Source: Clostridia bacterium (GTDB lineage Bacteria > Bacillota > Clostridia > Christensenellales > Pumilibacteraceae). From it: a stretch of 62,527 bases of DNA. The stretch covers positions 1 to 62,527 of the forward strand of contig JAGAPA010000035.1 in the NCBI GenBank assembly GCA_017623455.1, given 5' to 3'. Of the stretch, positions 16,307-38,832 are shown piece by piece; position 1 is the stretch's first letter; each line of letters opens with the position of its first letter. A program made the translations under genes and the position numbers. The notes beneath the pieces are model-generated. The model had not been told where the DNA came from. It worked only from the letters and a program-made list of their open reading frames with translations, and made no database searches.

Positions 16307-16308
16307 AA

Positions 16309-22936: not shown

Positions 22937-22957
22937 AAATTTTTCCTACCCTTTAAA

Positions 22958-23512: not shown

Positions 23513-23528
23513 AAACGTTCTCCTTTAA

Positions 23529-24254
23529 TTATGCAGTAAATACACCTGATGCAACTTCCCAAGCGTGTGGAGCACCTTCTAGATTATCAAAACCTTGAGC
23601 CTGAATTGCATACGCAGTAACAGCAATTGTCTTTCCTTTGTAATTTACACCATCGTGATTAGAAAAATCTGCTATGGCACTGCTGATATAAACCTTTTCA
23701 AATACATTGTAATCTTCTTTTGCAACAGCTAAATCGCCTTTAACTTTATCCGTTATTCCATAGAAATAAACATTCGCAACACGTTCACTGGCTTCTAATT
23801 CTCCGTTATCATTGCTATCAATGTATAAAGGGTTCCAACCATTTGCTTCCATTTGTTTTTCAATAGTAGGATATCCTGCACTAACTCCACCGTCAGCAAC
23901 TTCATATCCTGCTTCAAGCGGTACAATTTCATTTACTACCTTAACGAACAAATATGCATTTTCAGATCCTTCATCCACATGAATAATGGGATCTTTATCG
24001 TAAGAAGCGCCAGGGATAAGCTTGAAACCTTGACCAAACATTACACGCTCAATTACATCATGTTCATTTTTTTTATGTTTTCCGTCTGTTCCAACGAAAC
24101 CTTCAGTTAACGTAATACCTACGTCACCAATGGTAAACGTGTTAGTTAACGTACCCGTTTGAGAAGTAAGATATGCCAAAGTACCGAAGACACTTCCGCA
24201 CACAAGCAATACAGCACACAACATTACTGCCATAACTTTTGCAAATTTTTTCAT
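23529..24254 (-). CDS. SipW-dependent-type (TasA/camelysin-like) secreted protein 1
   Basis: The product (about 241 residues) has a signal region ending GTLAYLTSQTGTLTNTF, then TIGDVGITLTEG, the shared TasA-like pattern. The mature part contains KLIPGASYDKDPIIHVD and SENAYLFVKVVNEI, the conserved PG-x-x-x-x-K/DP element of this fold, and a C-terminal AVTAYAIQAQGF strand. I choose the ATG at 24254, nine bases after GGAGG; an ATG three codons earlier abuts the ribosome site. It follows sipW after a 140-base gap that contains no gene. It is the first substrate downstream of the peptidase, as tasA or calY is of sipW in Bacillus. Confidence 0.83.
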   Translation of the reverse strand: MKKFAKVMAVMLCAVLLVCGSVFGTLAYLTSQTGTLTNTFTIGDVGITLTEGFVGTDGKHKKNEHDVIERVMFGQGFKLIPGASYDKDPIIHVDEGSENAYLFVKVVNEIVPLEAGYEVADGGVSAGYPTIEKQMEANGWNPLYIDSNDNGELEASERVANVYFYGITDKVKGDLAVAKEDYNVFEKVYISSAIADFSNHDGVNYKGKTIAVTAYAIQAQGFDNLEGAPHAWEVASGVFTA

Positions 24255-24394
24255 TTTTTGCATCCTCCAAAAAAAATTTAATTTATTTTATGTAATACGG
24301 CGATAAAGCCGACGTTACCGTGATTAATTTATCAAATACGTCTTATCTTGCTTGTCCGCTTTTATTTCCCAAGAAACGAACAACGCATATAAGG

Positions 24395-24922
24395 CTATTT
24401 TGCGGTGTCACCTTTCGGTGATTTATCAGATTTGTCGTCCTTTCCGAAAAGTATATCGGGAAGAATGATTAACGCTATTAAAACAAATATTATTGCTATC
24501 GAAGTAAATCTTCCTGCCTTAGACTGCAAGAAAGCCGCAATATATCCGATAAGCGGAATATGGAACTGAACCTTGCCGATAATAGAGCTTGGGGCAACAA
24601 GTGCTCCGTCTGCCGTATTGTTATTGTCGCCTTTCGTCCTGAACATTACGGAAGAGGGATCGTCAGTAACTACATCTTCTATTCGATGCGTTACGATTGT
24701 ATCGCCCGCAACCCTGAAAGTTATTACGTCGCCTTTTCGCAAATCGTTTGCATTAACCTTTGTTACGTATACTATCGAGCCTACGGGGTAGTTTGGCTCC
24801 ATAGATCCCGAAACGATTGTATACGGTTGTAGCCCAAAGAGTTTCAAACCAAACAGCAACACTGCTAAAAGCGCTACGATAGCAACCAAAACCCAAGTGC
24901 ATATATTCCATACTTTTTTCAC
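24395..24922 (-). CDS. sipW: Signal peptidase I, SipW (ER/archaeal) type
   Basis: This 175-residue membrane peptidase removes signal peptides from TasA-like proteins. A first membrane span (about 10-30) is followed by IVSGSMEPNYP with the catalytic Ser40, VGSIVYV, GDVITF and TIVTHRIE, where His79 takes the place of the lysine found in ordinary bacterial type I peptidases. GDNNNTAD and GKVQFHIPLIGY follow, and a second membrane span at about 140-157 precedes a charged, Lys/Asp-rich tail. It starts with GTG, preceded by GAGG, which itself lies in the loop of a small CAAAG/CTTTG hairpin that may limit translation. It heads the locus and is transcribed from the promoter at 24990-25018. Confidence 0.92.
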   Translation of the reverse strand: MKKVWNICTWVLVAIVALLAVLLFGLKLFGLQPYTIVSGSMEPNYPVGSIVYVTKVNANDLRKGDVITFRVAGDTIVTHRIEDVVTDDPSSVMFRTKGDNNNTADGALVAPSSIIGKVQFHIPLIGYIAAFLQSKAGRFTSIAIIFVLIALIILPDILFGKDDKSDKSPKGDTAK

Positions 24923-25205: not shown

Positions 25206-26564
25206 TTACATAAGAGTGATCATAAGCTGACAAGCAAGTACGATAAGAACGAGTGCGATGGGGTAGGTAGATGCGTAAGCAGATGCTACGTCGTCCGTTC
25301 CTGCGGTTTTGCAAAGAGTACCGAGAGCGGGAGTAGAAGTCATACCACCCGTGATAGAGCCAAGGTTGTTGAGAAGAGGCAACTTCATAAGGTACTTTGC
25401 TACGAAGAATCCAACTACCATAGGAACGATGGTCATAAGCGCGCCACCAACAAAGCCCCAGGCTACGATTGCTCCGCCGTGCTTACTGATTTCGCCTACA
25501 AGCGATACGCCACCCTCAAAGCCTGCGCCAAGAAGGAAGAGCATAAGACCAAACTCACGAAGAATTTTGGTGGTTTCGGCGGGGATTTGAAGAGAAAGTT
25601 TGCCGATACGTCCAAAGTGACCAAATACAAGACACATAATAAGAACGCCACCAGTTGTTCCTAAACTAAAGCAAGATCCGTCATAGCCTGCGCCGGTAAG
25701 AGGAATCTTGATGGAACCAAGGAGCAAGCCTGCTACTACTGCAAGACCAAATGCGGTAAGTCCAAGAGGATCGGGCATAAAGAGTTTGCTATAGTCTTTC
25801 TTTTCTTCGTCGCCACCAATCTTAAGGAGTTCTCTCTCGTGTTCCATATTAGATTTAAGGAATTTGGGCATAAGTTGAACGAAAAGTACTACACCAATTA
25901 CGCCGAAAGGATATGCGATTGCGTGTCCAAGCGTGATAAGAGCCATATTTTCGGTTGCCGCGTCTTGCGCTGCGGAGAAACCGGGAGTAGAGGTAAGCGC
26001 TCCGGAAAGAATTCCCGACCAAAATTCAGGGCCGTACTCGGGGGTAAGAAGTGTGCAAACAACTGCAACTGCCGTTCCCGAAAGAATTACGATAATACCG
26101 ATTACGATATAGGTTTTGAAGTTCTTTGCGAGGTTTTTGAAGAAGTTAGGGCCTGCAATAAATCCAACTGCGCCTACAAAGAGGATAAGACCAATATTTT
26201 GGATAGGTCCTTTAAGATTCTTTACAAGTGCGTCGCCTACACCGTTAACGTGGAACGCGCCAAGAAGGGGAACGTCACCAAAGTCAAGAGTGCAAAGCCA
26301 TCCGAATAGGATTGCAACAAGGAATACGCCTGCGGTTCCAAGAGATACTCCCTTAACTTCAATGCCGCCAAGCAAATAGCCAAGCGCCATGATTACGAAT
26401 AAAAGCACAAACATTGCAAACGTGGACGAGAAGTTGAAAGGTCCTTTTACTCCACCATCAAAATTGATTGCGCTAATTGCGCACCAAACTGCAATACCTG
26501 CAACTACTACGAGCGCAATAACAATCCAAAGCCACTTAAGGCTCTTTTTTTGATTATTTTCCAT
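25206..26564 (-). CDS. AspT/YidE-type permease, probable dicarboxylate exchanger or exporter
   Basis: The 452-residue membrane protein consists of two similar halves of about five to six membrane spans each, as in the AspT/YidE/YbjL duplication family. The motifs GILSGALTSTPGFSAAQDA and ITGGMTSTPALGTLCKTAG mark the repeated re-entrant regions, and HAIAYPFGVIGV and AYASTYPIALV the paired following helices. AspT exchanges aspartate for alanine, and relatives carry succinate. Because the gene follows the fumarate reductase-like pair, export of succinate or exchange with malate/aspartate is a reasonable inference. The best ribosome site (AGGAG) lies 15 bases before the ATG, longer than usual. An imperfect hairpin (ATGCCACGAT/ATCGTGACAT) lies in the 96-base gap to the upstream gene. 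Confidence 0.85.
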   Translation of the reverse strand: MENNQKKSLKWLWIVIALVVVAGIAVWCAISAINFDGGVKGPFNFSSTFAMFVLLFVIMALGYLLGGIEVKGVSLGTAGVFLVAILFGWLCTLDFGDVPLLGAFHVNGVGDALVKNLKGPIQNIGLILFVGAVGFIAGPNFFKNLAKNFKTYIVIGIIVILSGTAVAVVCTLLTPEYGPEFWSGILSGALTSTPGFSAAQDAATENMALITLGHAIAYPFGVIGVVLFVQLMPKFLKSNMEHERELLKIGGDEEKKDYSKLFMPDPLGLTAFGLAVVAGLLLGSIKIPLTGAGYDGSCFSLGTTGGVLIMCLVFGHFGRIGKLSLQIPAETTKILREFGLMLFLLGAGFEGGVSLVGEISKHGGAIVAWGFVGGALMTIVPMVVGFFVAKYLMKLPLLNNLGSITGGMTSTPALGTLCKTAGTDDVASAYASTYPIALVLIVLACQLMITLM

Positions 26565-26660
26565 GATTATTAAATTTTTCTCCTAAAATATTACGTTTTA
26601 TACGTGGTTAATGCCACGATAGTTTTTCCATCGTGACATTTCCCCGTTTTTAACTTTTAA

Positions 26661-28274
26661 TTAGATGTCTTTTCTGTTTCTTGCGTAGTTGGGAAGAAGC
26701 TTGGGAGATACGAGCTTTGTATCTACGCCTGCCTCTTTAAGTTCTTTCTCGTATTTTGCAACGTGAGAAAGAGTGAGCTTTGCAAGTTTAACGTCTTTAG
26801 CCGCCTTTGCGGATTCCTTACCTGCATTTCTACCGAATACGATAATATCAAGCAAAGAGTTTCCCATAAGTCTGTTTCTTCCGTGGATTCCTCCAACTGC
26901 TTCGCCTGCTACGAAGAGGTTGGGGATACCGGTCATGCCGTTGGGAGAAATTTCAAGTCCACCGTTTTGATAATGAAGAGTGGGGTATACGAGGATAGGC
27001 TCTTTACGAATATCAATACCGTATTTTGCGAACATTCTGTGCATTGCGGGAATTCTCTTCATGATTGTTCCCTCACCGCCAATCATTTCAATCATAGGCG
27101 TATCAAGCCATACAGCCTTGCCTGTGCCGGTATCAACACCGTTATCTCTGTCAGAACATTCTCTGATAATTCCGGATGCGTTTACGTCACGAGTTTCAAG
27201 TGGATGAATGTATGCTACACCGTTCTTGTTAACGAGCTGTGCGCCCAAAGAACGTACTTTCTCGGTAACGAGTGCGCCAAGAATCTGCTCGGGGAACGCA
27301 GCTCCAGTGGGATGATACTGAAGAGTATCTGCGTAAAGAAGCTTTGCGCCTGCTCTGTAACCAAGCACAAGTCCGTCTGCAGTTGCACCGTAATGGTTAG
27401 ACGTGGGGAAGTTCTGATAGTGCATTCTTCCTGCTCCACCTGTTGCAATTACTACGCACTTAGCGCGAGCAACCATAATCTCTTCGGTTTCCATATTCAT
27501 AAGAACAGCTCCGGCGATCTTGCCTTCGGTATCCTTAATAAGTTCGATTGCAGATGTAAACTCTACAACGGGAATACCGCGGTTAAGAACTTCGTCGCGG
27601 AGGGTACGCATAATTTCTGCGCCCGAGTAGTCCTTACAAGCGTGCATACGCTTTCTGGAAGTTCCGCCACCGTGAGTGGTTACCATCGTTCCGTCTTCAG
27701 TCTTATCAAACTCTACGCCAAGGTGGTTAAGCCACTGAATAGCGTCGGGAGCTTCGGTAACGAGTTTGTGAACAAGTTCGGGCTTGTTAGCAAAGTGTCC
27801 ACCACCCATAACGTCGATATAATGGATAGCAGGGCTATCGTTGGGCTTGTCTGCAGCCTGAATTCCGCCTTCTGCCATCATGGAGTTAGCGTCACCGATA
27901 CGAAGCTTGGTTACAATCATAACGTTTGCGCCTGCTTCGTGCGCTTCGATTGCAGCGGAAGAACCTGCTCCACCACCACCGATTACGAGTACGTCAACGT
28001 CGTATGCGGGCTTAGTAAGATCAATCTTCTTGCCCTTGATACGGGAATGAGCCTGAAGGTAAGCTGCAAGCTCGTGGGGAACTTTGTCACCCTTGTTAAC
28101 ACCTACGGTAAGGTTAACGAAATTTTCTTCCTTATAGTCGGGATGGTATGCCTTTAAGATAGCATCCTTCTCGTCTGCGGTCATTCTTGCGATATTATCT
28201 TTGTTTGCGAATCTTTCCTGACGGGTAGCCTCTACCTTCTTCAAAGATTCAAGTATTTCGGGATTGTGATACAT
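26661..28274 (-). CDS. Fumarate reductase-like flavoprotein subunit (TfrA/FrdA type)
   Basis: The 537-residue flavoprotein belongs to the succinate dehydrogenase/fumarate reductase/aspartate oxidase family. The FAD fold is VDVLVIGGGGAGSSAA, with AEGGIQAA after it. In membrane FrdA a histidine before this AEGG segment links FAD covalently; here the residues are NSM, so FAD should be bound non-covalently, as in soluble enzymes. Substrate and proton-transfer residues appear in YHPTG, LVTEKVR, HYQNGG and NRLMGNSLLDIIVFGR. No membrane-anchor gene accompanies it. It follows the Fe-S subunit at 28289 by 14 bases and resembles the methanogen thiol:fumarate reductase TfrA in its context. Reduction of fumarate to succinate is the likely direction because malate dehydrogenase and fumarase are in the same operon. 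Confidence 0.88.
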   Translation of the reverse strand: MYHNPEILESLKKVEATRQERFANKDNIARMTADEKDAILKAYHPDYKEENFVNLTVGVNKGDKVPHELAAYLQAHSRIKGKKIDLTKPAYDVDVLVIGGGGAGSSAAIEAHEAGANVMIVTKLRIGDANSMMAEGGIQAADKPNDSPAIHYIDVMGGGHFANKPELVHKLVTEAPDAIQWLNHLGVEFDKTEDGTMVTTHGGGTSRKRMHACKDYSGAEIMRTLRDEVLNRGIPVVEFTSAIELIKDTEGKIAGAVLMNMETEEIMVARAKCVVIATGGAGRMHYQNFPTSNHYGATADGLVLGYRAGAKLLYADTLQYHPTGAAFPEQILGALVTEKVRSLGAQLVNKNGVAYIHPLETRDVNASGIIRECSDRDNGVDTGTGKAVWLDTPMIEMIGGEGTIMKRIPAMHRMFAKYGIDIRKEPILVYPTLHYQNGGLEISPNGMTGIPNLFVAGEAVGGIHGRNRLMGNSLLDIIVFGRNAGKESAKAAKDVKLAKLTLSHVAKYEKELKEAGVDTKLVSPKLLPNYARNRKDI

Positions 28275-28288
28275 AATTTTTCTCCTTC

Positions 28289-28960
28289 TTATTTCTCGAT
28301 TTCTCTGTTGTTGTAGAGTTCCTTAAGTTCTTCTAAGGGCTTTTGCATAAGAGCCTCCATAGTTGCCTTAAAGTCGCCTCTTGCGATTTCTTCTACACGG
28401 ATATCAAGATGCTCGCAGTTGGGAGCGATGTACTTTCCGGTAAGACGACGAGCAAGCATTGCTACCTGAGGATGAGAGATGCCTGCAGGACATCCTGACG
28501 AACAGCATCCGCACATTACGCAGTCGAAAGACTCTTCTGCGCACTTTTCGAACTCTCCACGCTGTGCATAAGCAATATACTGCATTACGTTAAGTCCCTG
28601 AGTACATCTCTTTGTACAAGCGTTACATCCGATACAAGCGTAAATTTCGGGATAAAGTTGCATCATAATCTGCTCGGTGGGCTTTACCTTTTCGATATCG
28701 TACACCTGCTTTACGAGGGGGAAGTAAGGAAGTGTTGCAATGTACATTCCGTCTTCTACCTGAGTAGAGCATGCAAGGCAAACCTTAAGCTCGGTTTCGC
28801 CCTTAATTCTATAAATGGTTGTACAAGCTCCACAGAAGCCGTTACGGCATCCGCAACCTCTCAAAAGCTGATAGCCTGCATATTCCATTGCCTTCATAAT
28901 TGTAAGGTTTGACGGTACTTCGTATTTCTTTCCCATCAAATAAATTGTTACCATTTCCAT
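28289..28960 (-). CDS. Fumarate reductase-like iron-sulfur subunit (TfrB N-terminal type)
   Basis: The 223-residue protein has an N-terminal 2Fe-2S ferredoxin domain (RGCGCRNGFCGACT and a later CLAC) and a C-terminal domain with CIGCNACTKRCTQG and CVMCGCCSSGCPAG for 4Fe-4S clusters. It should pass electrons between the flavoprotein at 26661-28274 and the Hdr-Flx proteins. Methanogen TfrB continues into HdrB-like CCG domains; here they are absent and a separate HdrB is encoded 6 kb upstream in the same operon. The ATG follows AGGAG with nine bases of spacing. The N-terminal domain is shorter and more CoxS-like than in SdhB. Confidence 0.87.
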   Translation of the reverse strand: MEMVTIYLMGKKYEVPSNLTIMKAMEYAGYQLLRGCGCRNGFCGACTTIYRIKGETELKVCLACSTQVEDGMYIATLPYFPLVKQVYDIEKVKPTEQIMMQLYPEIYACIGCNACTKRCTQGLNVMQYIAYAQRGEFEKCAEESFDCVMCGCCSSGCPAGISHPQVAMLARRLTGKYIAPNCEHLDIRVEEIARGDFKATMEALMQKPLEELKELYNNREIEK

Positions 28961-28977
28961 TGTTTTTTCTCCTGATA

Positions 28978-29808
28978 TTAATATTCGTTAGGAAGTTCGT
29001 CAAGTTGGTCGCATCTAAATACGGGACCGTCTTTACAAACATATTTGTCGCCTACATTACATCTTCCGCACTTACCTACGCCACACTTCATGCGAAGCTC
29101 CAAGGTTGTGTATACCTGCGTCTTATCAAAGCCAAGCTTGATTAAAGAAGCAAGGGTAAACTTAATCATGATGGGAGGTCCGCAAAGCACTGCCGTTTTG
29201 TTTGTATCAAAGCCAAGCTCTTCTACAAACGCAGGTACGAAGCCTACGTGTCCGTCCCATTCGGGTTGAGGTCTGTCGATGGTGAGATGAACGTTGAAGT
29301 CGGGTTCGTTCATCCACTCTGTCTTGATTTCGTTGAAGTCTACGAGGTCGTCCATAGAACGAGATCCATATACGATATCTACTTTGCCGTAGTTTGCTCT
29401 GTTATCTCTTATATAGTTGATAACGGAACGCAAGGGCGCAAGACCGATACCACCTGCAATGAAGAGCATATCTTTACCCTTAAACTCGGTTTCTACGGGG
29501 AAGGGATTGCCGTAAGGTCCTCTTACGGTTACTTCCTGTCCTACTTCCATTGCATGAAGCCATGTTGTAAGGCATCCGCACTTTTTAATGGAGAACTCCA
29601 AGAATTCTTTATTTGTGGGGGAAGAAGTGATAGAGAACATTGCCTCGCCAACGCCGGGGATGGAAACCATCGCACACTGACCGGGCTTGTGAATAAAGGG
29701 CTTTTGACCTTCTCTTGTCACAACTCTAAACGTCTTAACGTCGGGAGTGTCTTTTCTGATATCGGTAACTACTCCTATAACCGGAATCAAAGTTTCAAAA
29801 TCAGTCAT
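28978..29808 (-). CDS. flxA: FAD/NAD(P)-binding oxidoreductase, FlxA type
   Basis: This 276-residue protein is of the ferredoxin-NADP reductase type found in anaerobic sulfite reductase B, hydrogenase gamma and FlxA. It shows a flavin-binding barrel (GQCAMVSIPG, SITSSP), GPYGNPFP, the nucleotide-binding GGIGLAPLRSVI and CGPPIMI, and a Cys-rich C-terminus (LRMKCGVGKCGRCNVG) for a 2Fe-2S cluster. It would oxidise NADH (or NADPH) and feed electrons to the Hdr module. I choose the ATG at 29808, eight bases after GGAGG; it overlaps the FlxB stop. Gene order hdrBCA-flxDCBA matches the Desulfovibrio-type hdr-flx operon in reverse or forward sense. Confidence 0.88.
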   Translation of the reverse strand: MTDFETLIPVIGVVTDIRKDTPDVKTFRVVTREGQKPFIHKPGQCAMVSIPGVGEAMFSITSSPTNKEFLEFSIKKCGCLTTWLHAMEVGQEVTVRGPYGNPFPVETEFKGKDMLFIAGGIGLAPLRSVINYIRDNRANYGKVDIVYGSRSMDDLVDFNEIKTEWMNEPDFNVHLTIDRPQPEWDGHVGFVPAFVEELGFDTNKTAVLCGPPIMIKFTLASLIKLGFDKTQVYTTLELRMKCGVGKCGRCNVGDKYVCKDGPVFRCDQLDELPNEY

Positions 29809-30835
29809 TGTTCTTACCTCCAATCGTCTTTATTACTTTTGCAATATTCATGGAGATTGGGCACTTCTTAACGCATCTACCGCATCCTACGCACGAATAA
29901 ATTCCTTCGTTGTTGGAGGGATAGTATACAAGTTTGTGCATAAATCTCTGTCTGAAGCGCTGAAGTTGGAAGTTACGGGAGTTGCCGTGCGCCATCTTAG
30001 TAAAGTCCGCGTACATACACGAGTCCCAACAACGGAATCTCTTTACGCCGTCATTCGTCTTAAAGTCTTTAATGTCATAACACTGACACGTAGGACATAC
30101 GAACGTACAAGAACCACAGCCCAAGCAAGCTTCGGAAAGCTCTTCCCACTTAGCGTCGTTGAAAAGCTCGTTAAGCTTATCGGGAGTGAAACCTGAAAGG
30201 TCAACGTTTGCATAAGGAAGCTTGGACAAAATTTCTTTGGTATTCTTCTTTTGCTCGTCGATTTTCGCCTCATCGTTGCTATCAGCTTGAGCGAACAAAT
30301 CCTTAACTGCATCGGTAAGCGCATTACCTTTGTCGGTGTTTGCGTTCCAATAAAGGAAACCGTCGGCAATATAAGTGGTTACGTCACCAAGAGGATTGGT
30401 TGCGTCGATTCCAAAAGCAGAACAGAAGCAACTTTCTTCGGGACGAGAACAAGCAAGCGTTACGATTACGCCCTTTTCTCTCTTTGCCTTGTAGTAAGTA
30501 TCAATAGGATCTACAAGGAACACTCTGTCAAGGATTTCGAATGAACGGTAGTCGCAAGCGCGTACACCGAACAGTACGAAAGACTCAACTTTTTCTCTTA
30601 CGTCAATGATATCAATCTTCTTTCCCTCGGTCTTAAATTTCATAAGATCTTCAGCTTGGGGGAAGAAAGAATCCTTTGCGCTCTTTACGGTCTGAACGGA
30701 AAGATTAACTTCTGCGCCGTCTTCATACTTTGCAAAATTAGTTTCGCCTGCTACGGTGACGGGCAATATAAGATCGGTTGAAGAAGAGATCTTAGCGAAC
30801 AAATCATTAAGTTTATTAAGTTCGATTTTTAACAT
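29801..30835 (-). CDS. flxB: 4Fe-4S oxidoreductase subunit, FlxB / sulfite reductase A type
   Basis: The 344-residue protein belongs to the family of anaerobic sulfite reductase subunit A and hydrogenase beta subunits. Its N-terminal half contains VRACDYRSFEILD and ACSRPEESCFCSAF, cofactor or cluster-binding elements; the C-terminal half has CLGCGSCTFVCPTC and CVGCGRCVKKCPI for two 4Fe-4S clusters. It would move electrons from FlxA to FlxC/FlxD and HdrA. The ATG follows the FlxC stop directly and uses GGAGG inside the FlxC coding sequence, and its end overlaps flxA, so the three are translationally coupled. Confidence 0.85.
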   Translation of the reverse strand: MLKIELNKLNDLFAKISSSTDLILPVTVAGETNFAKYEDGAEVNLSVQTVKSAKDSFFPQAEDLMKFKTEGKKIDIIDVREKVESFVLFGVRACDYRSFEILDRVFLVDPIDTYYKAKREKGVIVTLACSRPEESCFCSAFGIDATNPLGDVTTYIADGFLYWNANTDKGNALTDAVKDLFAQADSNDEAKIDEQKKNTKEILSKLPYANVDLSGFTPDKLNELFNDAKWEELSEACLGCGSCTFVCPTCQCYDIKDFKTNDGVKRFRCWDSCMYADFTKMAHGNSRNFQLQRFRQRFMHKLVYYPSNNEGIYSCVGCGRCVKKCPISMNIAKVIKTIGGKNND

Positions 30836-31819
30836 TTATTTACCCTCCTTCAAGTTTGATCCGGGCTCGATATCAGAGGTTGTAAAGGCAGTAAGTGGCG
30901 CTTTGCTTTCGGTATCCGCGCCTGCCTGATACTCTCCGTAAAACTCATTGATATCCTTGATATACTTACGATTGATGAGGTGAAGAGGAATATTTTGAGG
31001 ACAAACTCTGCTACACTCACCACAGTCGGTACATCTTCCGGTTACGTGGAAAGAACGAATGATGTGGAAAAGCTTCTCTTCAAACTTGTCCGCATTTGCC
31101 TTAGCGTCAACACCCGATTCGGGGTTATCGAATACACACTTGGTGCAAGTACAAGCAGGACAAACATTTCTACAAGCATTACAACGAATACACTTAGAAA
31201 GTTCACTCTTCCAGAAAGCAAATCTCTCATCGGCAGTCATTGCTTCGAGCTCTGCAACTTTAGAGAATCTCTTCATAGAGTCTGCTTCGGGCATTTCGTT
31301 TACAATAATAAGCTCGTCGTAAGCAACGTGCTTCTTGCTCTTACAAGAAAGGCACTTTTCAAGCATTACTTCGCCACGAACAACGGTCTTGTCGCCATAA
31401 ATACTCTTTACGGTAACTTCTTCACCATTCTCTTCAAGTCCAACTACGCCGTCAATTCCTTTTGCTTTGATAGCTTCGATGGAAAGATGACCCTGACACT
31501 CAATACCTACAATATAGATATTATCTTTGTTTACTCTATGCTCTTTTACAAGCTGATTAAAGCTGTATGTATCGCATGGCTTGAGGAAAACAAGAATCTT
31601 TCCTTCGTTTTTACGCTCTTTTACAAGGTATTTGGAGAGATTTGCTCCGCAAAAACTATTGTAAACAAAGCTTTTTTCAATTTCTTCTTTGCTGTTGAAG
31701 ATTGCAGGGGTATTATCGTAGTAGAAATCGCCTGCAGTCCAACCGAGTACTCTGTTAACAGTTCCGTTTTCAAGCAACTCGATCGCCTTCGCCTTCATGA
31801 GGTTTTCTATTCTTTGCAT
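30836..31819 (-). CDS. flxC: 4Fe-4S oxidoreductase subunit, FlxC type
   Basis: The 328-residue protein is similar in plan to FlxB: an alpha/beta N-terminal part with LKPCDTYSFNQLV and IECQGHLS, a middle CLSCKSKKH, and two C-terminal ferredoxin motifs, CIRCNACRNVCPAC and CTDCGECSRVCPQ. It resembles coenzyme F420-reducing-hydrogenase beta-like proteins and Flx subunits. I place its start at the ATG at 31819, seven bases after GGAGG; a longer frame starting at 31858 would begin inside the preceding gene without a ribosome site. It overlaps the flxD stop by 13 bases. A direct role as an electron carrier is inferred from motifs and operon context. Confidence 0.83.
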   Translation of the reverse strand: MQRIENLMKAKAIELLENGTVNRVLGWTAGDFYYDNTPAIFNSKEEIEKSFVYNSFCGANLSKYLVKERKNEGKILVFLKPCDTYSFNQLVKEHRVNKDNIYIVGIECQGHLSIEAIKAKGIDGVVGLEENGEEVTVKSIYGDKTVVRGEVMLEKCLSCKSKKHVAYDELIIVNEMPEADSMKRFSKVAELEAMTADERFAFWKSELSKCIRCNACRNVCPACTCTKCVFDNPESGVDAKANADKFEEKLFHIIRSFHVTGRCTDCGECSRVCPQNIPLHLINRKYIKDINEFYGEYQAGADTESKAPLTAFTTSDIEPGSNLKEGK

Positions 31820-32247
31820 CTTAAATCCTCCAATCTCTTGTTTTCGCCGAGTTCGCAAATTTTTGCAGCAAATTCGTTCATTACGTTAGAGAACTTAACG
31901 CCTTCTGCAGCGGAAACCCATTCTACACGGGTTCTTTCTTTCTCAATGCCGAGATAATCGAGCATATCGAAAAGAAGCGTCATTCTTCTTCTTGCATAAT
32001 AGTTACCTGTCGTATAGTGGCAATCTCCGGGATGGCATCCACACATAATTACGCCATCAGCTCCACGCTGGAAAGCTTTGAGGATGAACATCGGATTTAC
32101 TCTACAAGAGCAGGGAACTCTGATAATCTTTACGTTTGCAGGATAGGAAAGTCTGCTACTTCCCGCAAGGTCTGCACCTGCATACGAACACCAGTTACAG
32201 CAGAAAGCCACGATAAGGGGCTGATATTCTTTATTTATCTCTTGCAT
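31807..32247 (-). CDS. flxD: FlxD/MvhD-type iron-sulfur protein
   Basis: This 146-residue protein matches the delta-subunit family (MvhD/FrhD/FlxD). It contains AFCCNWCSYAGADLAG, RVPCSCRVNP and GCHPGDCHYTTGNYYA, whose cysteines bind the 2Fe-2S cluster, and RMTLLFDMLDYLGIEKER. MvhD links a hydrogenase to HdrA in methanogens; FlxD links an NADH module to HdrA in bacteria. Here it sits between hdrA and flxC, as expected for the second arrangement, and no hydrogenase is present. It overlaps the hdrA stop by 13 bases, with GGAGG before its ATG. Confidence 0.9.
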   Translation of the reverse strand: MQEINKEYQPLIVAFCCNWCSYAGADLAGSSRLSYPANVKIIRVPCSCRVNPMFILKAFQRGADGVIMCGCHPGDCHYTTGNYYARRRMTLLFDMLDYLGIEKERTRVEWVSAAEGVKFSNVMNEFAAKICELGENKRLEDLRCKE

Positions 32248-34226
32248 ACTGCTTCTACCTCCGCCATAATCTGTTTAGTTGTGAATCCCTTAAGATCGAT
32301 TGCTCCGCTCGGACACGCTACGGTACAAGCACCGCAACCCTGACAAACAGCTTCGTTAACCGATGCAACTCTTCTCACCTCGGTCTTTCCACCGCCAAGA
32401 CGGAATTCCTTATCAACGTAAGTAATTGCTCCGTAAGGACAAACGTTTGCGCAAGTTCCGCAACCGATACACATACTATCGTCGGAAATAGATACGCAAG
32501 GATTGCACTTAAGCTTGTCTTTTGCCAAAAGTCCGATAACCTTTGCCGCACATGCAGACGCCTGCGATACGGTTTCGGGGATATCCTTAGGTCCTTGACA
32601 CATACCCGAAAGGAAAATTCCTGCCGTGGGGCTCTCTACGGGACGAAGCTTTGCGTGAGCTTCGGTGAGGAAGTTATTTGTATCGATAGAAGTCGTAAGA
32701 AGTGTTGCAATCTTACGAACGGAAGGTTCGGGCTCGATAGCAGCGGCAAGAACTACAAGGTCAGAAGCAATCGTGATCTGCTCGTTGGAAAGAAGATCAG
32801 AGCCTTGAACCATAAGTTTGCCATTTTCATTATATACCTTACCAACCATACCCTTAATGTAGTCTACGTCGTACTGCTCTACTGCTCTACGGTAGAATTC
32901 GTCGTAATTCTTTCCGGGAGTACGTACGTCTATATAGAATACGTGAACTTCGGTATCGGGATATTTTTCTCTGATAAGCATTGCGTGCTTTGCAGTATAC
33001 ATACAGCAAATCTTGGAGCAATAGGGCTTACCGCATCCGGAGATATCTCTACTTCCTACGCATTGAATAAAGGTAATAACGTGGGGATGAGTATTATCGG
33101 AGGGACGAAGAAGAGTTCCTTTAGTAGGACCGGCTGCATTCATAAGACGCTCGAGCTCCAAAGAGGTAATAACGTCTTTATTGTCTGCGTATCCGTACTC
33201 GTTAAAGTACTTAAGGTCTGCAATCTTAAATCCTGTTGCTACAACGATAGCACCATAATTTCTCTCAACGAAAGAATCCTGCTGAGTATAGTCGATAGCC
33301 TTTGCTTCACACTTCATAGAACAAAGTCCGCACTTACCGGTCTTGAGTTTAATACACTGCTCGGGATCGATAACTGCAACGTTGGGGATAGCTTGCGCGA
33401 AAGGAATGTAAGCTGCAGGACGGTTATTAAGGTTCATATTGAACTCGTTAAGTCCCTTCTTAGAAGGACAAACGCTCATACAAATTCCACAGCCGGTACA
33501 CTTCTTTTCGTCTATGTATCTTGCCTTTTTGCGGATCTTTACGGTAAAGTTACCTACAAAGCCCTTAACTTCTTCAACCTCGGAATATGAAAGGATATCA
33601 ATCTTTTCATTCTGCGCGCAGTCTACCATCTTGGGGGTAAGAATACAAGCCGCACAGTCGAGGGTGGGGAAAGTTTTGTCAAGCTGAGCCATTCTTCCGC
33701 CGATTGTAGGACGCTGTTCTACGATATCAACTTCATAGCCAGCCTCTGCAATATCAAGAGCGGTCTGAATTCCTGCAATACCTCCGCCAATTACGAGAGC
33801 ACGCTTAGTTACGCCCGTTTCTCCTGCGGTAAGAGGAGTGTTGAGTAAGAGTTTTGCAATTGCAGTTCTTCCCAAAATGATTGCTTTTACGGTTGCTTCT
33901 TCGATATCCTTATGAATCCAAGAAACTTGCTCACGGATGTTTGCAATTTCAACCATATAAGGGTTAAGTCCTGCGCTTTCTGCTGTCTTACGGAAAGTTG
34001 CTTCATGCATTCTGGGAGAGCAAGAGCAAACTACGATACCCGTAAGTCCATGTTCTTTTATAGCGGTCTTAATCAGTTGCTGTCCGTTTTCGGAACACAT
34101 ATACTGATAGTCGGCAGAGTATACTACGCCGGGCTCTTGACCAAGCGTTTCAGCTACTCTTTTGACGTCAACCGTTGCGGCTATATTGCTGCCGCACCAG
34201 CATACAAATACACCTATTCTTTGCAT
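32235..34226 (-). CDS. hdrA: Heterodisulfide reductase subunit A-like, bifurcating flavoprotein
   Basis: The 663-residue HdrA homologue carries an N-terminal domain (VFVCWCGSNI, VVCSCSPRMHE), a FAD-binding thioredoxin-reductase-like core (VIGGGIAGIQTAL, TIGGRMAQLDKTFP), inserted clusters (CTGCGICMSVCP; CIKLKTGKCGLCSMKC) and two C-terminal ferredoxin clusters (CIGCGTCANVCP and CQGCGACTVACP). In methanogens HdrA is the flavin site that bifurcates electrons between ferredoxin and a disulfide. The protein contains all expected cysteine groups, with ordinary Cys codons in the sites where some relatives use selenocysteine. It lies between hdrC and flxD in the expected order. Electron bifurcation in this organism is inferred. 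Confidence 0.92.
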   Translation of the reverse strand: MQRIGVFVCWCGSNIAATVDVKRVAETLGQEPGVVYSADYQYMCSENGQQLIKTAIKEHGLTGIVVCSCSPRMHEATFRKTAESAGLNPYMVEIANIREQVSWIHKDIEEATVKAIILGRTAIAKLLLNTPLTAGETGVTKRALVIGGGIAGIQTALDIAEAGYEVDIVEQRPTIGGRMAQLDKTFPTLDCAACILTPKMVDCAQNEKIDILSYSEVEEVKGFVGNFTVKIRKKARYIDEKKCTGCGICMSVCPSKKGLNEFNMNLNNRPAAYIPFAQAIPNVAVIDPEQCIKLKTGKCGLCSMKCEAKAIDYTQQDSFVERNYGAIVVATGFKIADLKYFNEYGYADNKDVITSLELERLMNAAGPTKGTLLRPSDNTHPHVITFIQCVGSRDISGCGKPYCSKICCMYTAKHAMLIREKYPDTEVHVFYIDVRTPGKNYDEFYRRAVEQYDVDYIKGMVGKVYNENGKLMVQGSDLLSNEQITIASDLVVLAAAIEPEPSVRKIATLLTTSIDTNNFLTEAHAKLRPVESPTAGIFLSGMCQGPKDIPETVSQASACAAKVIGLLAKDKLKCNPCVSISDDSMCIGCGTCANVCPYGAITYVDKEFRLGGGKTEVRRVASVNEAVCQGCGACTVACPSGAIDLKGFTTKQIMAEVEAVCKR

Positions 34227-34244
34227 TATGTCACTTCCTATATA

Positions 34245-34628
34245 TTATCTATTGTATTTTCTGAACGCGCTTACAAGAATCTGCTGAGGGAACTCAGGAT
34301 CCACAAACTGAGGAACCTCCTCCGCCTTCAACTGATTTTGACCTTGTACTCTGATTACGGATTCTCTTACTGCCTCTATAACCGCTGCAGGAGCTACGCC
34401 TCTGGGGCATCTCTCTACACACGCCATACAAGAAAGGCAATACCAAATGGATTTACTTTCCAAAAGTTTATCTGTCTGTCCTTTTGCAATAAGCGACACG
34501 AATTGATGAGGTTTGATATCCATGCTGTCAAACATAGGACATCTACCCGAACACTTTCCGCACTTCATGCACTGTTTTGCGTTAGTTCCGCTCAATTCGC
34601 TAATAATTTTAGCCTGTTCGTTATTCAT
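34245..34628 (-). CDS. hdrC: Heterodisulfide reductase subunit C-like 4Fe-4S protein
   Basis: The 127-residue protein has two CxxCxxCxxxCP motifs, CMKCGKCSGRCP and CLSCMACVERCP, and a helical tail, as in HdrC. It should shuttle electrons between the HdrA flavin and the catalytic HdrB. It starts 13 bases after hdrB, with GAGG before its ATG, and is followed by hdrA after 18 bases. Length is normal for a soluble HdrC; no membrane segment is present, so the whole complex is expected in the cytoplasm. Confidence 0.9.
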   Translation of the reverse strand: MNNEQAKIISELSGTNAKQCMKCGKCSGRCPMFDSMDIKPHQFVSLIAKGQTDKLLESKSIWYCLSCMACVERCPRGVAPAAVIEAVRESVIRVQGQNQLKAEEVPQFVDPEFPQQILVSAFRKYNR

Positions 34629-34641
34629 ATTGCTACCTCAC

Positions 34642-35439
34642 TTAAATTAAGCCAAGAGCTTGAGCAAGCAACTCGGTTAAGTATTTAACAGGCAAGGAAC
34701 CGTCACTGTTGTGGTTGAGATTATACCAACAAGCAGGGCAAGCAGTAATAAGCATATCTGCTCCGTTTGCTTTTGCATTATTAACGATTCTATTCGCCGT
34801 CTTTTTAACAACTTCCTTATCCTTTAAAGATACGTAAGCTCCGCAACATTCGTTTCTCATTGCGTATACAACGGGAGTTGCGCCTATCGCTTTGATAAAA
34901 TCTTCCAAAATCGTGGGATTTTCGGGATTATCAAACTGCAATACGGAACTTGGTCTTAAAAGCAAGCATCCGTAATAAGCACCAATCTTTACTCCCTTTA
35001 GGGGATTTACTACCTTAGCTTTAAGGTTTGCCCAGCCTACCGTGTCACGAAGCATTTCAAGATAATGAATAACCTCGGTTTCTCCGTTATACTCGTCGCC
35101 TTCGGCAAGATATCCGGTAGCCTTAAGATAGTTGTTAGCCTTGAGATTAATGTTTTCATCGTTCTTCATATCATTGTTAACACGCTTGATAACGTTATAA
35201 CAAGCAGAACAAAGTGTAAGAAGCTTTCCGTCCTGTTTTTTAGCGCTGTCAAGCGCTCTTACTGCGGACAATTTACGAGCGATTTCGTCCTTTGCTTGGG
35301 GATAAACCGCACCGCAACACTGCCAATTCTCGATTTCTTCCATATCGATTCCAAGCGCTTCTGCGCTCTTTCTCGCATAGATATCAAGATCTTTACCTTG
35401 TGTTTTGAGGGTACAACCCGGATAATAACTAAATTTCAT
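34642..35439 (-). CDS. hdrB: Heterodisulfide reductase subunit B-like CCG-domain protein
   Basis: The 265-residue protein has both CCG domains of HdrB. The first contains YPGCTLKT, NWQCCGAVYPQ and LCSACYNV; the second contains YYGCLLLRP, NECCGAYVSL and ACPACWYNL. In methanogens these cysteines hold two noncubane 4Fe-4S clusters at the disulfide-reducing site. Because both motifs are intact, the protein may reduce a disulfide-like substrate, or serve as an electron connector to the fumarate reductase-like pair in this operon. The methanogen disulfide CoM-S-S-CoB is not expected here. Its ATG follows AAGGAAAG, 22 bases after the fumC stop. Confidence 0.9.
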   Translation of the reverse strand: MKFSYYPGCTLKTQGKDLDIYARKSAEALGIDMEEIENWQCCGAVYPQAKDEIARKLSAVRALDSAKKQDGKLLTLCSACYNVIKRVNNDMKNDENINLKANNYLKATGYLAEGDEYNGETEVIHYLEMLRDTVGWANLKAKVVNPLKGVKIGAYYGCLLLRPSSVLQFDNPENPTILEDFIKAIGATPVVYAMRNECCGAYVSLKDKEVVKKTANRIVNNAKANGADMLITACPACWYNLNHNSDGSLPVKYLTELLAQALGLI

Positions 35440-35461
35440 CTTTGTCTTTCCTTAATTTATA

Positions 35462-36835
35462 TTATTTTTTGTATGCCATATCTTCGGGGTGGAATACTTC
35501 ATCAAACTTTGCGGAGGTAAGGAATCCGAGAGATACGCAAGCCTCTTTAAGTGAAATATTCTCCTTGTATGCCTTCTTAGCCGTCTTAGCCGCATTTTCA
35601 TATCCGATATAAGGATTAAGCGCGGTTACGAGCATAAGAGAATTGTAAAGATTATGATTCATCTTATCCTTATTAGCCTTAATTCCGCTTACACACTTAT
35701 CGTGGAAGGAATTAATTCCGTCTGCAAGAAGTCTTACGGACTGAAGGAAATTGTAGATAATAACGGGCATAAATACGTTAAGTTCGAAGTTGCCCTGAGA
35801 AGCTGCCATTCCAACGGCTGTATCGTTTCCGATAACCTGTACTGCAACCATCGTCATAGACTCACACTGGGTGGGATTAACCTTACCGGGCATAATGGAC
35901 GAACCGGGTTCGTTTTCGGGAATGAATATCTCTCCAAGACCGCAACGAGGACCGGATGCAAGCCAACGAATGTCGTTTGCAATCTTCATAAGGTTTGCAG
36001 CCAACGCCTTAAGTGCTCCGTGAGCAAATACGAGCTCATCCTTTGACGTAAGAGCATGATACTTATTCTCCGCGGTTACAAACTCTTTTCCGGTAAGTCC
36101 GCTTACCTGCTTTGCAACTTCCTCTGCAAAACCAACGGGAGCGTTAAGACCGGTTCCTACTGCTGTTCCGCCAAGAGCAAGCTCCTTAAGGCCGCCAAGA
36201 GCAAGTGTAAGCATACCCTTGGTTTTTTCAATCATATTTCTCCATCCGCTGATTTCTTGCGAGAAAGCAATTGGAACTGCGTCCTGAAGATGAGTTCTTC
36301 CGCTCTTTACAATACCTTCGTTTTCTGCCTCCAAACGCTTGAACGTCGCAATAAGCTTATCCATTGCGGGGAAGAGTTTGTCTTCAATTGCAAGAACAGC
36401 AGCTATATGCATTGCGGTGGGGAAAGTGTCGTTAGAGCTCTGGCTCATATTGATATGATCATTGGGATGAAGAATCTTTTCGCCTGCAATCTCATTACCA
36501 CGGTTTGCAATAACCTCGTTCGCGTTCATATTAGACTGAGTTCCACTACCTGTCTGCCATACAACGAGAGGGAAATGCTCGTAGAGCTTACCTGCAATTA
36601 CCTCGTCACAAGCTTTGCAGATAGCCTCGAGTTTCTTCTCGTCGAGTTTGCCAAGCTTATTATTTGCAAGAGCAGCAGCCTTTTTGAGGATTCCGAATGC
36701 GTGAGTGATTTCTCTGGGCATAATTTCGTCACCGATAACAAAGTTCTCGTGGCTACGCTCAGTTTGAGCTGCCCAATACTTGTCAGCAGGAACTCTCATT
36801 TCGCCCATTGTGTCTTTTTCTATACGGTATTCCAT
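35462..36835 (-). CDS. fumC: Fumarate hydratase, class II
   Basis: The 457-residue enzyme reversibly dehydrates malate to fumarate without an Fe-S cluster. It shows the family motifs [30 protein letters not shown] (B-site and A-site residues), TGLNAPVGF and the signature [13 protein letters not shown] with the catalytic serine. Length and motifs match class II fumarases rather than aspartase or argininosuccinate lyase. It is placed between malate dehydrogenase and hdrB, linking malate to the fumarate reductase-like enzyme downstream. AAGGAG precedes the ATG by about ten bases. Confidence 0.95.
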
Positions 36836-36893
36836 TTTTTAGGACTCCTTAAATTAAATTTTTCTGTTTTGCCATACCCTTTTATAGGGCTAA

Positions 36894-36918
36894 TCGCAGG
36901 ACGGTTCTCCTCCTGCGA
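36894..36918 (-). other. Intercistronic hairpin between mdh and fumC
   Basis: TCGCAGGA and TCCTGCGA form a perfect 8-bp stem around a 9-base loop in the gap between malate dehydrogenase and fumarase. There is no T-run after it on the transcribed strand, so mRNA processing or stability is a likelier role than termination. Confidence 0.55.
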
Positions 36919-36939
36919 ATAATTGTCTTACTTATAATA

Positions 36940-37887
36940 TTAGTTCAAAGCTTCTGCAATAACTTTCTTAAGAGCGTCTGCAGATGCTACAAGCTTAAGT
37001 CTTTCTTCTTCGGTGATGGGGGCTTCAATCGTAGTCTTAATGCCGTTGCAATTTACGATAGCCATAATGCTTACGCAAACATCCTCGATTCCATATTCGC
37101 CCTGCATAAGAACGGAAACGGTAAAGATAGAATCAATATCGGAAGAAAGGCACTTAACGAGCTGACAAACGGACGCTGCTATACCGTAGTTGGTTACGCC
37201 TTTGTTTGCAATAATCTGTCCACCCGACTTTCTTACGTACTCAACAACTTCGTCTTCGTTGAATTCCTTTACGCCTTCGGGAATTTCCTTAAGGCTCTTG
37301 GTGTACTGTTCAAGAGGAATACCTGCAACGGTAGCCATAGACCAAGGAACAAAAGAGGTATCGCCGTGCTCGCCGAACACGTTTGCGTCAACCTGATTCT
37401 GATTAACCTTGAAGAATTCTGCAATTCTGGTACGAAGTCTTGCGGTGTCAAGCAAAGTACCCGAACCAATAACTCTTTCTGCAGGAAGTCCGGTTTCTTT
37501 GATAAACACGTAGGTAAGGATATCTACGGGGTTAGCAACGAGAATATACTTCGCGTCGGGAGCATGCTTTGCAATCTGGGGTGCTATGCTCTTAATAATT
37601 TTTACGTTAGCCTGAACGAGGTCAATTCTCGTCATACCGGGCTTTCTGGGCATACCGGACGTGATGATTACGATATCCGAACCCTCTGCGTCCTCGTAAG
37701 AACCAGCTCTTACTACTGCAGGTGAAAGGTAAGGAGTAGCTTGGAAAATATCCATTGCTTCGCCTTTCGCTTTTGCTTCGTTGATATCAATAAGCAAAAT
37801 GTCAGATGCAAGATCTCTTGCTGCGAGTGTGTAAGCGATAGATGCGCCTACGGTTCCTGCGCCGATGATTGTAACTTTGTTTTTCAT
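36940..37887 (-). CDS. mdh: Malate dehydrogenase (lactate/malate dehydrogenase family)
   Basis: The 315-residue enzyme interconverts oxaloacetate and malate with NAD(H). The Rossmann motif is GAGTVGASIAYTLA and the aspartate in DILLIDI favours NAD. The specificity loop reads SGMPRKPGMTR; arginine in this loop selects malate, whereas lactate dehydrogenases have glutamine, so malate is the expected substrate. NPVDILTY, GSGTLLDTAR and the catalytic GEHGDTSF histidine follow. I place the start at the ATG at 37887, eight bases after GGGAG; the ATG five codons upstream overlaps that ribosome site. It lies 22 bases after rex and is the first enzyme of the redox operon. Confidence 0.93.
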   Translation of the reverse strand: MKNKVTIIGAGTVGASIAYTLAARDLASDILLIDINEAKAKGEAMDIFQATPYLSPAVVRAGSYEDAEGSDIVIITSGMPRKPGMTRIDLVQANVKIIKSIAPQIAKHAPDAKYILVANPVDILTYVFIKETGLPAERVIGSGTLLDTARLRTRIAEFFKVNQNQVDANVFGEHGDTSFVPWSMATVAGIPLEQYTKSLKEIPEGVKEFNEDEVVEYVRKSGGQIIANKGVTNYGIAASVCQLVKCLSSDIDSIFTVSVLMQGEYGIEDVCVSIMAIVNCNGIKTTIEAPITEEERLKLVASADALKKVIAEALN

Positions 37888-37909
37888 TGTTTTATCTCCC
37901 ATTTATAAT

Positions 37910-38530
37910 TTATTTTTCTTTTAACTGTTTTGATAGAACTGCCAGCGATGCCGCTAAGTTCTCGTTTTTAACTACAACCGTATCCGGTACCACAATATGA
38001 GTAGGTGAAAAATTCCAAATAGCTTTTATTCCTACGCTAACTAACTTATCTGCCGTGGACTGCGCAAAAGACGCCGGAACCGTTATAATTGCCATTGCTA
38101 TTCCGTTATCTTTAACGTAGCCTGAAATTTGTTTTTCGTCGAAAATAGGTTTACCGCCAATATTCTTTCCAAACAACTCTTCTCTTACGTCAAAGCCTGC
38201 TACTATTTCCAAACCGAACTGCGCAAATCCATCGTATTCGAGTAAAGCCTGTCCAAGCCTTCCTACTCCTACTATTACTGCGCTATTCTCGTCGTTTGCC
38301 CCAAGATAACTTTCAAGCTCGTTTATTAACTTGTGAACTTCATACCCAACTTTAGGTTTTCCGCCACAACTGATAGATGCAAGGTCTTTTCTAACTTGTA
38401 CTTCACCCAAGTTCAAAGCTCCAGCAATTTGAGTTGCGGATATATTAGGTTGAGATACGTCCAACGATTTAAGATAGTGCAAATATATTGGCAATCTGCG
38501 AATCGTGGACAACGAAATCTCAGTTTTCAT
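37910..38530 (-). CDS. rex: Redox-sensing transcriptional repressor Rex
   Basis: The 206-residue protein has an N-terminal winged helix (TIRRLPIYLHYL, SATQIAGALNLGEVQVRKDLASIS) and a Rossmann domain (VIVGVGRLGQALLEY, then GFDV) that senses the NADH/NAD+ ratio. The C-terminal helix is swapped in the dimer. Rex represses fermentative and reductive genes when NADH is low. It is the first gene of the malate-fumarate-Hdr-Flx operon and so probably controls it and itself. A classical Rex operator (TTGTTAA-N4-TTAACAA type) is not obvious at its promoter; other palindromes nearby are listed separately. The ATG follows AGGAGAAGTT. Confidence 0.94.
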   Translation of the reverse strand: MKTEISLSTIRRLPIYLHYLKSLDVSQPNISATQIAGALNLGEVQVRKDLASISCGGKPKVGYEVHKLINELESYLGANDENSAVIVGVGRLGQALLEYDGFAQFGLEIVAGFDVREELFGKNIGGKPIFDEKQISGYVKDNGIAMAIITVPASFAQSTADKLVSVGIKAIWNFSPTHIVVPDTVVVKNENLAASLAVLSKQLKEK

Positions 38531-38572: not shown

Positions 38573-38629
38573 ATCGATATTTTTTTATCGATTCTAATTT
38601 ATTATAGCAAATACTTAAACAAAAATCAA
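38573..38629 (-). promoter_or_regulatory. Promoter of the rex-mdh-hdr-flx operon with downstream palindrome
   Basis: TTGATT (38624-38629) and TATAAT (38601-38606) on the minus strand are 17 bp apart. Just downstream, in the presumed 5' UTR, lies the 20-bp palindrome ATCGATA-N6-TATCGAT (38573-38592), a possible operator or mRNA hairpin. Confidence 0.8.
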
Positions 38630-38717
38630 CAAAATAAATGAAAATACTGTGCACTTTTTAAATTTTTTTTGAAAATTTTTTTAGCAAGTATATATATAAT
38701 ATATAAAATCGTAGAAA

Positions 38718-38766
38718 GTTAGCGGTTGCTAACCAATTTTAAGGGCAATAGTTAGCGGTTGCTAAC
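38718..38766. repeat. Two copies of a 16-bp palindrome GTTAGC-N4-GCTAAC
   Basis: Copies at 38718-38733 and 38751-38766 are identical, with the same flanks (AGTTAGCGGTTGCTAACCAA), and are 33 bp apart, about three helical turns. They lie between the divergent rex and deoxyinosine-glycosylase-like promoters. A third copy with a different 4-base centre is upstream of the copper ATPase promoter (54513-54528). The form suggests a dimeric repressor; the half-site spacing is two bases longer than that of Rex. The regulator is unknown. Confidence 0.75.
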
Positions 38767-38832
38767 CAAAAATTTAACGATTTTTCAATAAATATTTGAT
38801 TATATTAAAATTTTAATTTTTTTGTAAATAAG

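Follow-up and report, generated by a model that had tools for sequence, protein, structure and literature searches.

How fermenting Clostridia of the gut and rumen save energy during succinate formation is unsettled, and for Blautia luti the succinate step is still modelled, in the account given in PMC12773636, with a plain NADH-dependent fumarate reductase. The question is raised here by an operon of a Clostridia bacterium (Christensenellales; Pumilibacteraceae; assembly GCA_017623455.1), for which the whole of contig JAGAPA010000035.1 (62,527 nucleotides, hereafter the window) was analyzed. The minus strand at positions 25206-38530 encodes, in this order, rex-mdh-fumC-hdrB-hdrC-hdrA-flxD-flxC-flxB-flxA-frdB-frdA and an AspT/YidE-type antiporter. 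With a probability of roughly two in three, the operon specifies an electron-bifurcating, soluble fumarate reductase that depends on NADH, and the interpretation as a bifurcating complex is supported at the genomic level. If true, succinate formation would give extra reduced ferredoxin and thereby shift the ATP and H2 balances of gut and rumen fermentation. The idea is already known as a hypothesis from the same arrangement in Pseudoclostridium thermosuccinogenes, and the window operon joins this proposed kind; what was earlier proposed for one related bacterium is seen here to be conserved as a unit across dozens of clostridia from animal guts.

The first-pass annotation of the window had listed the twelve genes from rex to frdA in this order and had described a fumarate reductase-like pair encoded with a full HdrABC-FlxABCD set. 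All twelve genes were recovered in place on the minus strand, and frdB and frdA adjoin the genes for all seven Flx-Hdr subunits. The extent of the unit needed revision, as the antiporter gene (25206-26564) had been omitted. Intergenic gaps from fumC to frdA range from -52 to +22 bp (overlaps included) and rex is separated from mdh by 7 bp, with wider gaps of 104 bp between mdh and fumC and 96 bp between frdA and the antiporter gene.

The order of these genes in other genomes is conserved far beyond chance. A scan of named genomes gave at least 584 relatives, of which the 80 best were taken, and 61 of the 80 loci reached 9 kb upstream of frdA and were informative, the other 19 being too short. 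The nine-gene order hdrBCA-flxDCBA-frdBA occurs in 60 of these 61 loci and in all 26 informative loci of the window's own order and family, for which 30 loci were fetched (28 of the 36 non-own order genomes) and four of the 30 were too short. One contig is shared by both sets, and pooled the order is retained in 86/87 informative loci with that contig counted twice. The search for genomes carrying all the genes together, which had been suggested along with the prediction, thus found them widely, and a lack of conserved order, which had been named as evidence against it, is not what these loci show. The exception is L162, where flxB and flxA share a single reading frame of 587 aa (7509-9269), either a true fusion or an assembly error. 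Within the block, the largest gap is at most 264 bp in 85/86 loci and 734 bp in the remaining one (L152).

Among the 61 informative named loci, mdh is present in 49, fumC in 44, rex in 12, and an antiporter relative on the same strand in 40. Most bearers carry the label Clostridia, Oscillospiraceae, Lachnospiraceae, or Ruminococcus, a large number originate from animal gut samples, and they include Ohessyouella blattaphilus (L182) and Ruminococcus flavefaciens FD-1 (L180). The latter is a culturable succinate producer, so the question is experimentally accessible. The operon was also seen on contigs that bear the labels Bacteroidaceae, Treponema, and Spirochaetaceae (L161, L166, and L197), by mis-binning or horizontal transfer.

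The distribution of FrdA is patchy and closely tracks that of HdrA. With the own genome counted, FrdA was identified in 3/74 genomes of the family, all of the window's genus (E <= 1e-60), in 37/296 genomes sampled in the order (E <= 1e-100), and in 39/398 genomes of a phylum sample. HdrA was identified in 36/296 order genomes (E <= 1e-120, four best candidates scored per genome). Across the 296 genomes, 35 have both proteins, two have FrdA only, one has HdrA only, and 258 have neither (Fisher p 6e-42, kinship between genomes ignored). The two FrdA-only genomes are G093, in which the FrdA contig measures 4.5 kb, and G236, and the HdrA-only genome, G301, has a different HdrA with 45% identity.

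Outside the order, FrdBA is found with graded sets of Hdr and Flx genes. In the phylum sample, 30 of 39 non-own places were fetched and 28 were informative, most stretches extending only about 3 kb downstream. Among other ARRANGEMENTS, four of the 28 phylum loci have frdBA followed by hdrBCA, and flxDCBA comes next in all three that were extended, a rearrangement of the same gene set; L117 has hdrCBA-flxDCBA-frdBA. Five of the 28 carry hdrCBA, a second HdrA-like protein, flxD, a diverged FlxC-like protein, and then frdBA. As an observation on this type, the second HdrA-like protein is longer, and it lies with the diverged FlxC-like protein between HdrCBA and FrdBA in L096 (7287-10562) and also in L095, L099, L105, and L112; in L096 the FlxC-like protein has no Pfam match at 1e-8 and a POR-type gene follows frdA. 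Another four of the 28 loci have hdrCB-frdBA only, with neither HdrA nor Flx in the stretch fetched, and in the stretches of 14 (13 with frdBA, one with frdA only) there is no Hdr gene.

It follows from these 14 loci that FrdBA does not depend everywhere on adjoining Hdr, which bears on the improbable alternative that the two are co-regulated but separate, FrdBA being fed by ferredoxin or another donor while Hdr-Flx serves other redox balancing. Such independence would also suit the three no-Hdr loci examined, where the genes near FrdBA include one for pyruvate carboxylase or one for malic enzyme, the latter with or without fumarase. Separate enzymes are, however, difficult to reconcile with the retention of order in 86/87 loci and with the presence of FrdA in 35 of the 36 HdrA-bearing order genomes, the exception being the different HdrA of G301. 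Among the 20 neighbor genes chosen for a Pfam scan of the phylum loci, malic enzyme and fumarase were identified in L092, malic enzyme in L096 and L098, pyruvate carboxylase in L094, and fumarase with a DctM transporter in L109; no C4-acid genes were found among the four L102 and two L101 neighbors scanned, and a fumC relative adjoins frdB in L101. The series of arrangements is consistent with FrdBA being a fumarate-linked unit, with HdrC and HdrB as its probable earliest Hdr partners.

In the bifurcating mechanism, we infer that the Flx, Hdr, and Frd proteins form one complex. FlxA would accept hydride from NADH, and FlxB, FlxC, and FlxD would pass the electrons to the flavin of HdrA, which would split each pair by sending one electron to ferredoxin (Fd) and the other to HdrC and HdrB. 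From HdrC and HdrB, electrons would reach FrdB and then FrdA, where fumarate would be reduced to succinate, presumably by direct transfer without a thiol. With the stoichiometry expected, the net reaction would be 2 NADH + fumarate + 2 Fd(ox) -> 2 NAD+ + succinate + 2 Fd(red), for which a driving force of -18 to -53 kJ/mol was computed from standard potentials. Phosphoenolpyruvate carboxykinase (PEPCK), encoded in 3/3 genomes of the genus, would feed oxaloacetate, which Mdh and FumC would turn into fumarate, and the antiporter would export succinate as its presumed substrate. Reduced ferredoxin would be converted into an ion gradient by Rnf; an RnfD/NqrB-family gene is present in 3/3 genus genomes, rnfC and rnfD exceed their score thresholds in both the own genome and G059, and an [FeFe]-hydrogenase gene is present in 2/3. 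At high NADH levels, Rex would turn on expression of the operon.

Such complexes are reversible in principle, and the Flx-Hdr of Desulfovibrio vulgaris is proposed to run reversed in fermentation (PMC10084766). Oxidation of succinate with ferredoxin-driven reduction of NAD+ is nevertheless scarcely credible for the window operon, as reversal is energetically uphill by calculation, the operon companions are mdh, fumC, the antiporter gene, and rex, and P. thermosuccinogenes, with an equivalent operon, is described as forming succinate (PMC7282089).

The subunits themselves carry the features expected of a bifurcating complex that starts from NADH. The predicted entry subunit is encoded by flxA (28978-29823), with FAD/NAD(P)H-binding domains (NAD_binding_1, FAD_binding_6, and DHODB_Fe-S_bind) and an ATG five codons inside the listed start as the likelier start. 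The flxB product (29801-30835) has a Fer4_22 domain and kinship to sulfhydrogenase beta subunits below the cut-off. The flxC product (30836-31858) is related to beta chains of F420-dependent formate dehydrogenase (9t1s, 7bkb, and 8rvu), and an ATG 13 codons inside is likelier to be its start than the listed TTG. The product of flxD (31807-32247; MvhD/FlpD) matches the Pfam family FlpD with 188 bits against a cut-off of 22.3. The flavin and Fe-S subunit HdrA (32235-34226), the predicted site of bifurcation, matches HdrA chains of known structure (best E 2.3e-199, 5odc). HdrC (34245-34628) was identified by family-model matches and has eight conserved cysteines for two [4Fe-4S] clusters, and HdrB (34642-35439) matches methanogen HdrB chains and has two Pfam CCG stretches with ten cysteines for two non-cubane [4Fe-4S] clusters.

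Residue conservation was counted over sequences with at least 80% coverage and 40% identity, with the window included and one contig present twice. The pair E359 and K413 of HdrA is kept in 89/89 aligned sequences, and the pair is also kept in 10/10 sequences from other arrangements (copies with 70% coverage, a limit that kept out the longer second HdrA of type D). In the alignment, K413 and E359 correspond to K409 and E356 of M. thermolithotrophicus HdrA, which are proposed as marks of bifurcating forms (PMC12054007). The case for bifurcation here consists of these residues and homology, and the same complex might in principle reduce fumarate with NADH and lose the energy. We consider this very improbable, on the grounds of the invariant residue pair, the presence of Rnf genes, and the argument that a plain NADH:fumarate reductase would have no need of HdrA.

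The fumarate reductase end of the proposed bifurcating complex is formed by frdB (28289-28960) and frdA (26661-28274). FrdA is a flavoprotein with an N-terminal extension of about 90 aa that matches structures of SdhA/FrdA (best E 1.8e-64), flavocytochrome c, and L-aspartate oxidase, and it is the sole FrdA/SdhA-type match in its own genome at E <= 0.001. Residues Q319, E338, R341, R362, D363, and H434 are kept in 111/111 sequences. The substrate-site His and Arg residues, which by eye we take to be the equivalents of those in E. coli (the HMMER alignment has a different gap near R362), are also kept (H321 110/111, R362 and H434 111/111, R468 110/111). N130 aligns with the His of E. coli FrdA that links the FAD, and because of this Asn the FAD is probably non-covalent. 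FrdB has 223 aa, with cysteines for a [2Fe-2S] and two [4Fe-4S] clusters (12 cluster cysteines in 106/106 aligned), weak TfrB and SdhB matches, and no CCG domain. No frdCD or sdhCD membrane anchor genes were found beside frdBA, the neighbors being flxA and the antiporter gene, although the rest of the genome was not searched.

If electrons are split at HdrA, the identity of the high-potential acceptor becomes central. Methanogens have a thiol:fumarate reductase that is fed by coenzymes M and B, and by analogy two enzymes could be joined here by a soluble thiol, with Hdr-Flx bifurcating to ferredoxin and a protein or small disulfide and the resulting dithiol feeding FrdBA. This alternative is unlikely on the evidence as a whole, in which several points do suit it. 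The ten cysteines of the HdrB clusters are all kept in 90/90 aligned sequences of the order's clade and in 15/15 of other types; DsrC is proposed as the partner of the D. vulgaris Flx-Hdr (PMC10084766 and PMC5296606); and DsrC was the only disulfide partner searched for. Against it, DsrC (PF04358) was found in 0/3 genus genomes (77.6, 94, and 88% complete; E. coli control positive; other disulfides not searched), in line with the first-pass annotation, which had seen no disulfide partner such as DsrC. The operon is for this reason filed as an Flx-Hdr variant and not as a DsrC-linked enzyme. Moreover, FrdB lacks the CCG part of TfrB, and its matches to the TfrB model (488 positions) are confined to positions 19-94, while positions 413-487, at the C-terminal end of the model, match HdrB and CCG matches are confined to HdrB in 3/3 genus genomes. 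The idea that TfrB is split over FrdB, HdrC, and HdrB was rejected, because the ferredoxin part of the TfrB model matches FlxC too. Finally, HdrCB adjoins FrdBA without nearby HdrA or Flx in 4/28 phylum loci.

Direct transfer within the bifurcating complex would make HdrB and HdrC (eight cysteines in 90/90 aligned) a wire and not a disulfide reductase, with the non-cubane clusters feeding fumarate reductase directly and fumarate as the high-potential acceptor. FrdBA with HdrCB would then be the core, to which HdrA and subsequently FlxABCD were added, and the system, run by Rex, would be a main energy-saving route of succinate-forming gut Clostridia. We hold this fuller version to be evenly poised between true and false.

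Several observations weigh against the bifurcating fumarate reductase as read here. The HdrB with all ten cluster cysteines may still possess a disulfide site and, because they are all kept, sequence alone does not decide between disulfide reduction and electron relay. FrdA, FrdB, HdrA, and HdrB all fall under the curated cut-offs of TfrA, TfrB, HdrA2, and HdrB; the best NCBIfam model for FrdA is TfrA with 341.6 bits (cut-off 718), FrdB reaches 35.6 bits with TfrB (cut-off 385), and the top-scoring model for HdrB is SdhE with 159 bits (cut-off 500). Hdr genes are absent near FrdBA in half of the phylum loci, as described above. The sole subunit fusion, which a first scan rule did not return and a second returned in L162, is flxB-flxA, and none joins Frd to Hdr. 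Pairwise distances of HdrB and FrdB correlate at only r = 0.40; correlations among the subunits span 0.36-0.83 (HdrA-FrdA 0.75) and were set aside as not discriminating. In a tubeworm symbiont, tfrAB is reported to lie outside the co-expression of its flx-hdr cluster (PMC11636981). Lastly, operons appear to have exchanged frdBA as a unit. The window and L122 (goat colon metagenome-assembled genome RGIG2224) share 91% identity in FrdB and FrdA and 74% in HdrA, and the operons in this apparent exchange show an average difference of 29% in their HdrA, FlxD, and HdrB proteins. DNA identity to L122 is 0.74-0.85 in windows across 28926-26777 and 0.63-0.73 in most flanking windows, with two windows at 0.79 and 0.81 in the antiporter gene.

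The closest known counterpart is the 'succinate operon' of P. thermosuccinogenes (PMC7282089), which strings together fumarase, Flx-Hdr (seven locus tags), fumarate reductase (two genes), and a presumed succinate transporter and for which the same coupling is proposed. According to this source, which credits the idea of a bifurcating fumarate reductase to a 2019 preprint, the organism makes succinate and the operon rises about 4-fold when CO2 is limiting, although the increase is not significant for all subunits. Unlike the window operon, it lacks rex and mdh as far as its figure legend tells, and the likeness rests on the gene list. TfrAB-type proteins clustered with flxABCD-hdrABC are likewise described from Thioflavicoccus and tubeworm symbionts (PMC6315080 and PMC11636981), and Flx-Hdr is suggested to form a complex with TfrAB and OGOR there (PMC6315080). 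Those clusters belong to an autotrophic reductive tricarboxylic acid cycle with korABCD, whereas the set here is fermentative, with rex, mdh, fumC, and the antiporter gene. In Wolinella, an HdrB-related subunit with ten cysteines (SdhE) serves fumarate reduction in the SdhABE 8-methylmenaquinol:fumarate reductase (PMC2680327), although the donor there is a quinol at the membrane and the module here is predicted to be soluble and NADH-linked. FlxABCD-HdrABC of D. vulgaris, as the sources cited above describe it, has the same seven subunits, NADH as donor, and ferredoxin as low-potential acceptor; its high-potential acceptor is proposed to be DsrC, and here fumarate via FrdBA is proposed and DsrC was not found in three genomes.

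The D. vulgaris complex was reportedly described by Ramos et al. in 2015. The methanogen TfrAB resembles the window pair in that FrdA obtains its highest NCBIfam score with TfrA, below the cut-off, and differs in that FrdB has no CCG-type C-terminal part and neither the TfrA nor the TfrB cut-off is reached. In searches of the open-licence PubMed Central literature, no description was found of the spread of the operon in gut Clostridia including R. flavefaciens, of graded Hdr attachments, or of a lineage-specific palindrome before rex, nor any biochemical proof of a bifurcating fumarate reductase.

The first gene of the operon encodes a predicted NADH/NAD+-sensing repressor, Rex (37910-38530; Pfam PF06971, Put_DNA-bind_N, and PF02629, CoA_binding), and a candidate Rex operator lies upstream. 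The palindrome TCGATA-N6-TATCGA (TCGATAAAAAAATATCGA, 38574-38591) is the only exact copy in its own genome as assembled, and exact copies number one in G059 and three in G060 (two further copies elsewhere). It lies between rex and promoter-like hexamers at 38629-38601, from a scan that as a whole was not above chance (25 sites vs 23.1 expected). With at most one mismatch, the TCGATA motif occurs upstream of the first operon gene in 15/85 loci against 0.11 in shuffles, which preserve base composition only, the motif having been discovered on the same loci as were counted. The known clostridial Rex motif TTGTTAANNNNTTAACAA (PMC9600882) occurs there with at most two mismatches in 19/85 loci against 0.53 in shuffles. 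One or other palindrome is present in 36/90 loci and neither in 54/90. The rex type of the window accompanies 13/15 loci with the TCGATA site and 6/75 others, with kinship ignored; L063 was counted as being without the site because the called rex start overlaps it. The palindrome is thus probably a lineage-specific Rex operator. Two other candidates were tried. The Rex pattern TTGTGAANNNNNNTTCACAA gave four window matches with at most three mismatches against 6.5 expected, none of them upstream of rex, and GGTTAGCNNNNGCTAACY, confined to this operon in its own genome, was set aside in favor of TCGATA-N6-TATCGA because L062, from the same genus, was the only other locus to show it. Further upstream, the palindrome GGTTAGCAACCGCTAACT has two copies 33 bp apart (38717-38767), the only two copies of the pattern in the own genome as assembled, and L062 has related palindromes at the same place; a second regulator may act on the operon via this pair.

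The remaining genes of the operon fit the supply of fumarate and the export of succinate. The mdh gene (36940-37902) encodes a malate dehydrogenase with Pfam Ldh_1_N and Ldh_1_C domains, a malate/lactate dehydrogenase (MDH/LDH) fold, and a PRKPGMTR loop that we take to be the MDH-type signature, and fumC (35462-36835) encodes a class II fumarase (Pfam Lyase_1 and FumaraseC_C). The AspT/YidE-type antiporter matches TIGR01625 with 140 bits against a cut-off of 72 and is perhaps an exchanger for a C4-dicarboxylate such as succinate. Horizontal gain of the operon was considered from base composition, but G+C contents of 40-47% in its genes and 36-42% in nine flanking genes are suggestive only.

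Elsewhere in the window, an aromatic amino acid gene cluster (9651-17316) includes a shikimate dehydrogenase-shikimate kinase fusion. Three small exported proteins, which by eye may be TasA-like, are encoded at 22235-24922 beside a signal peptidase labelled SipW-like on the same basis, and 23529-24263 has no Pfam match at 1e-10. A 1484-aa protein (54661-59115) combines a TIR domain, BspA-type leucine-rich repeats, and a Listeria-Bacteroides repeat.

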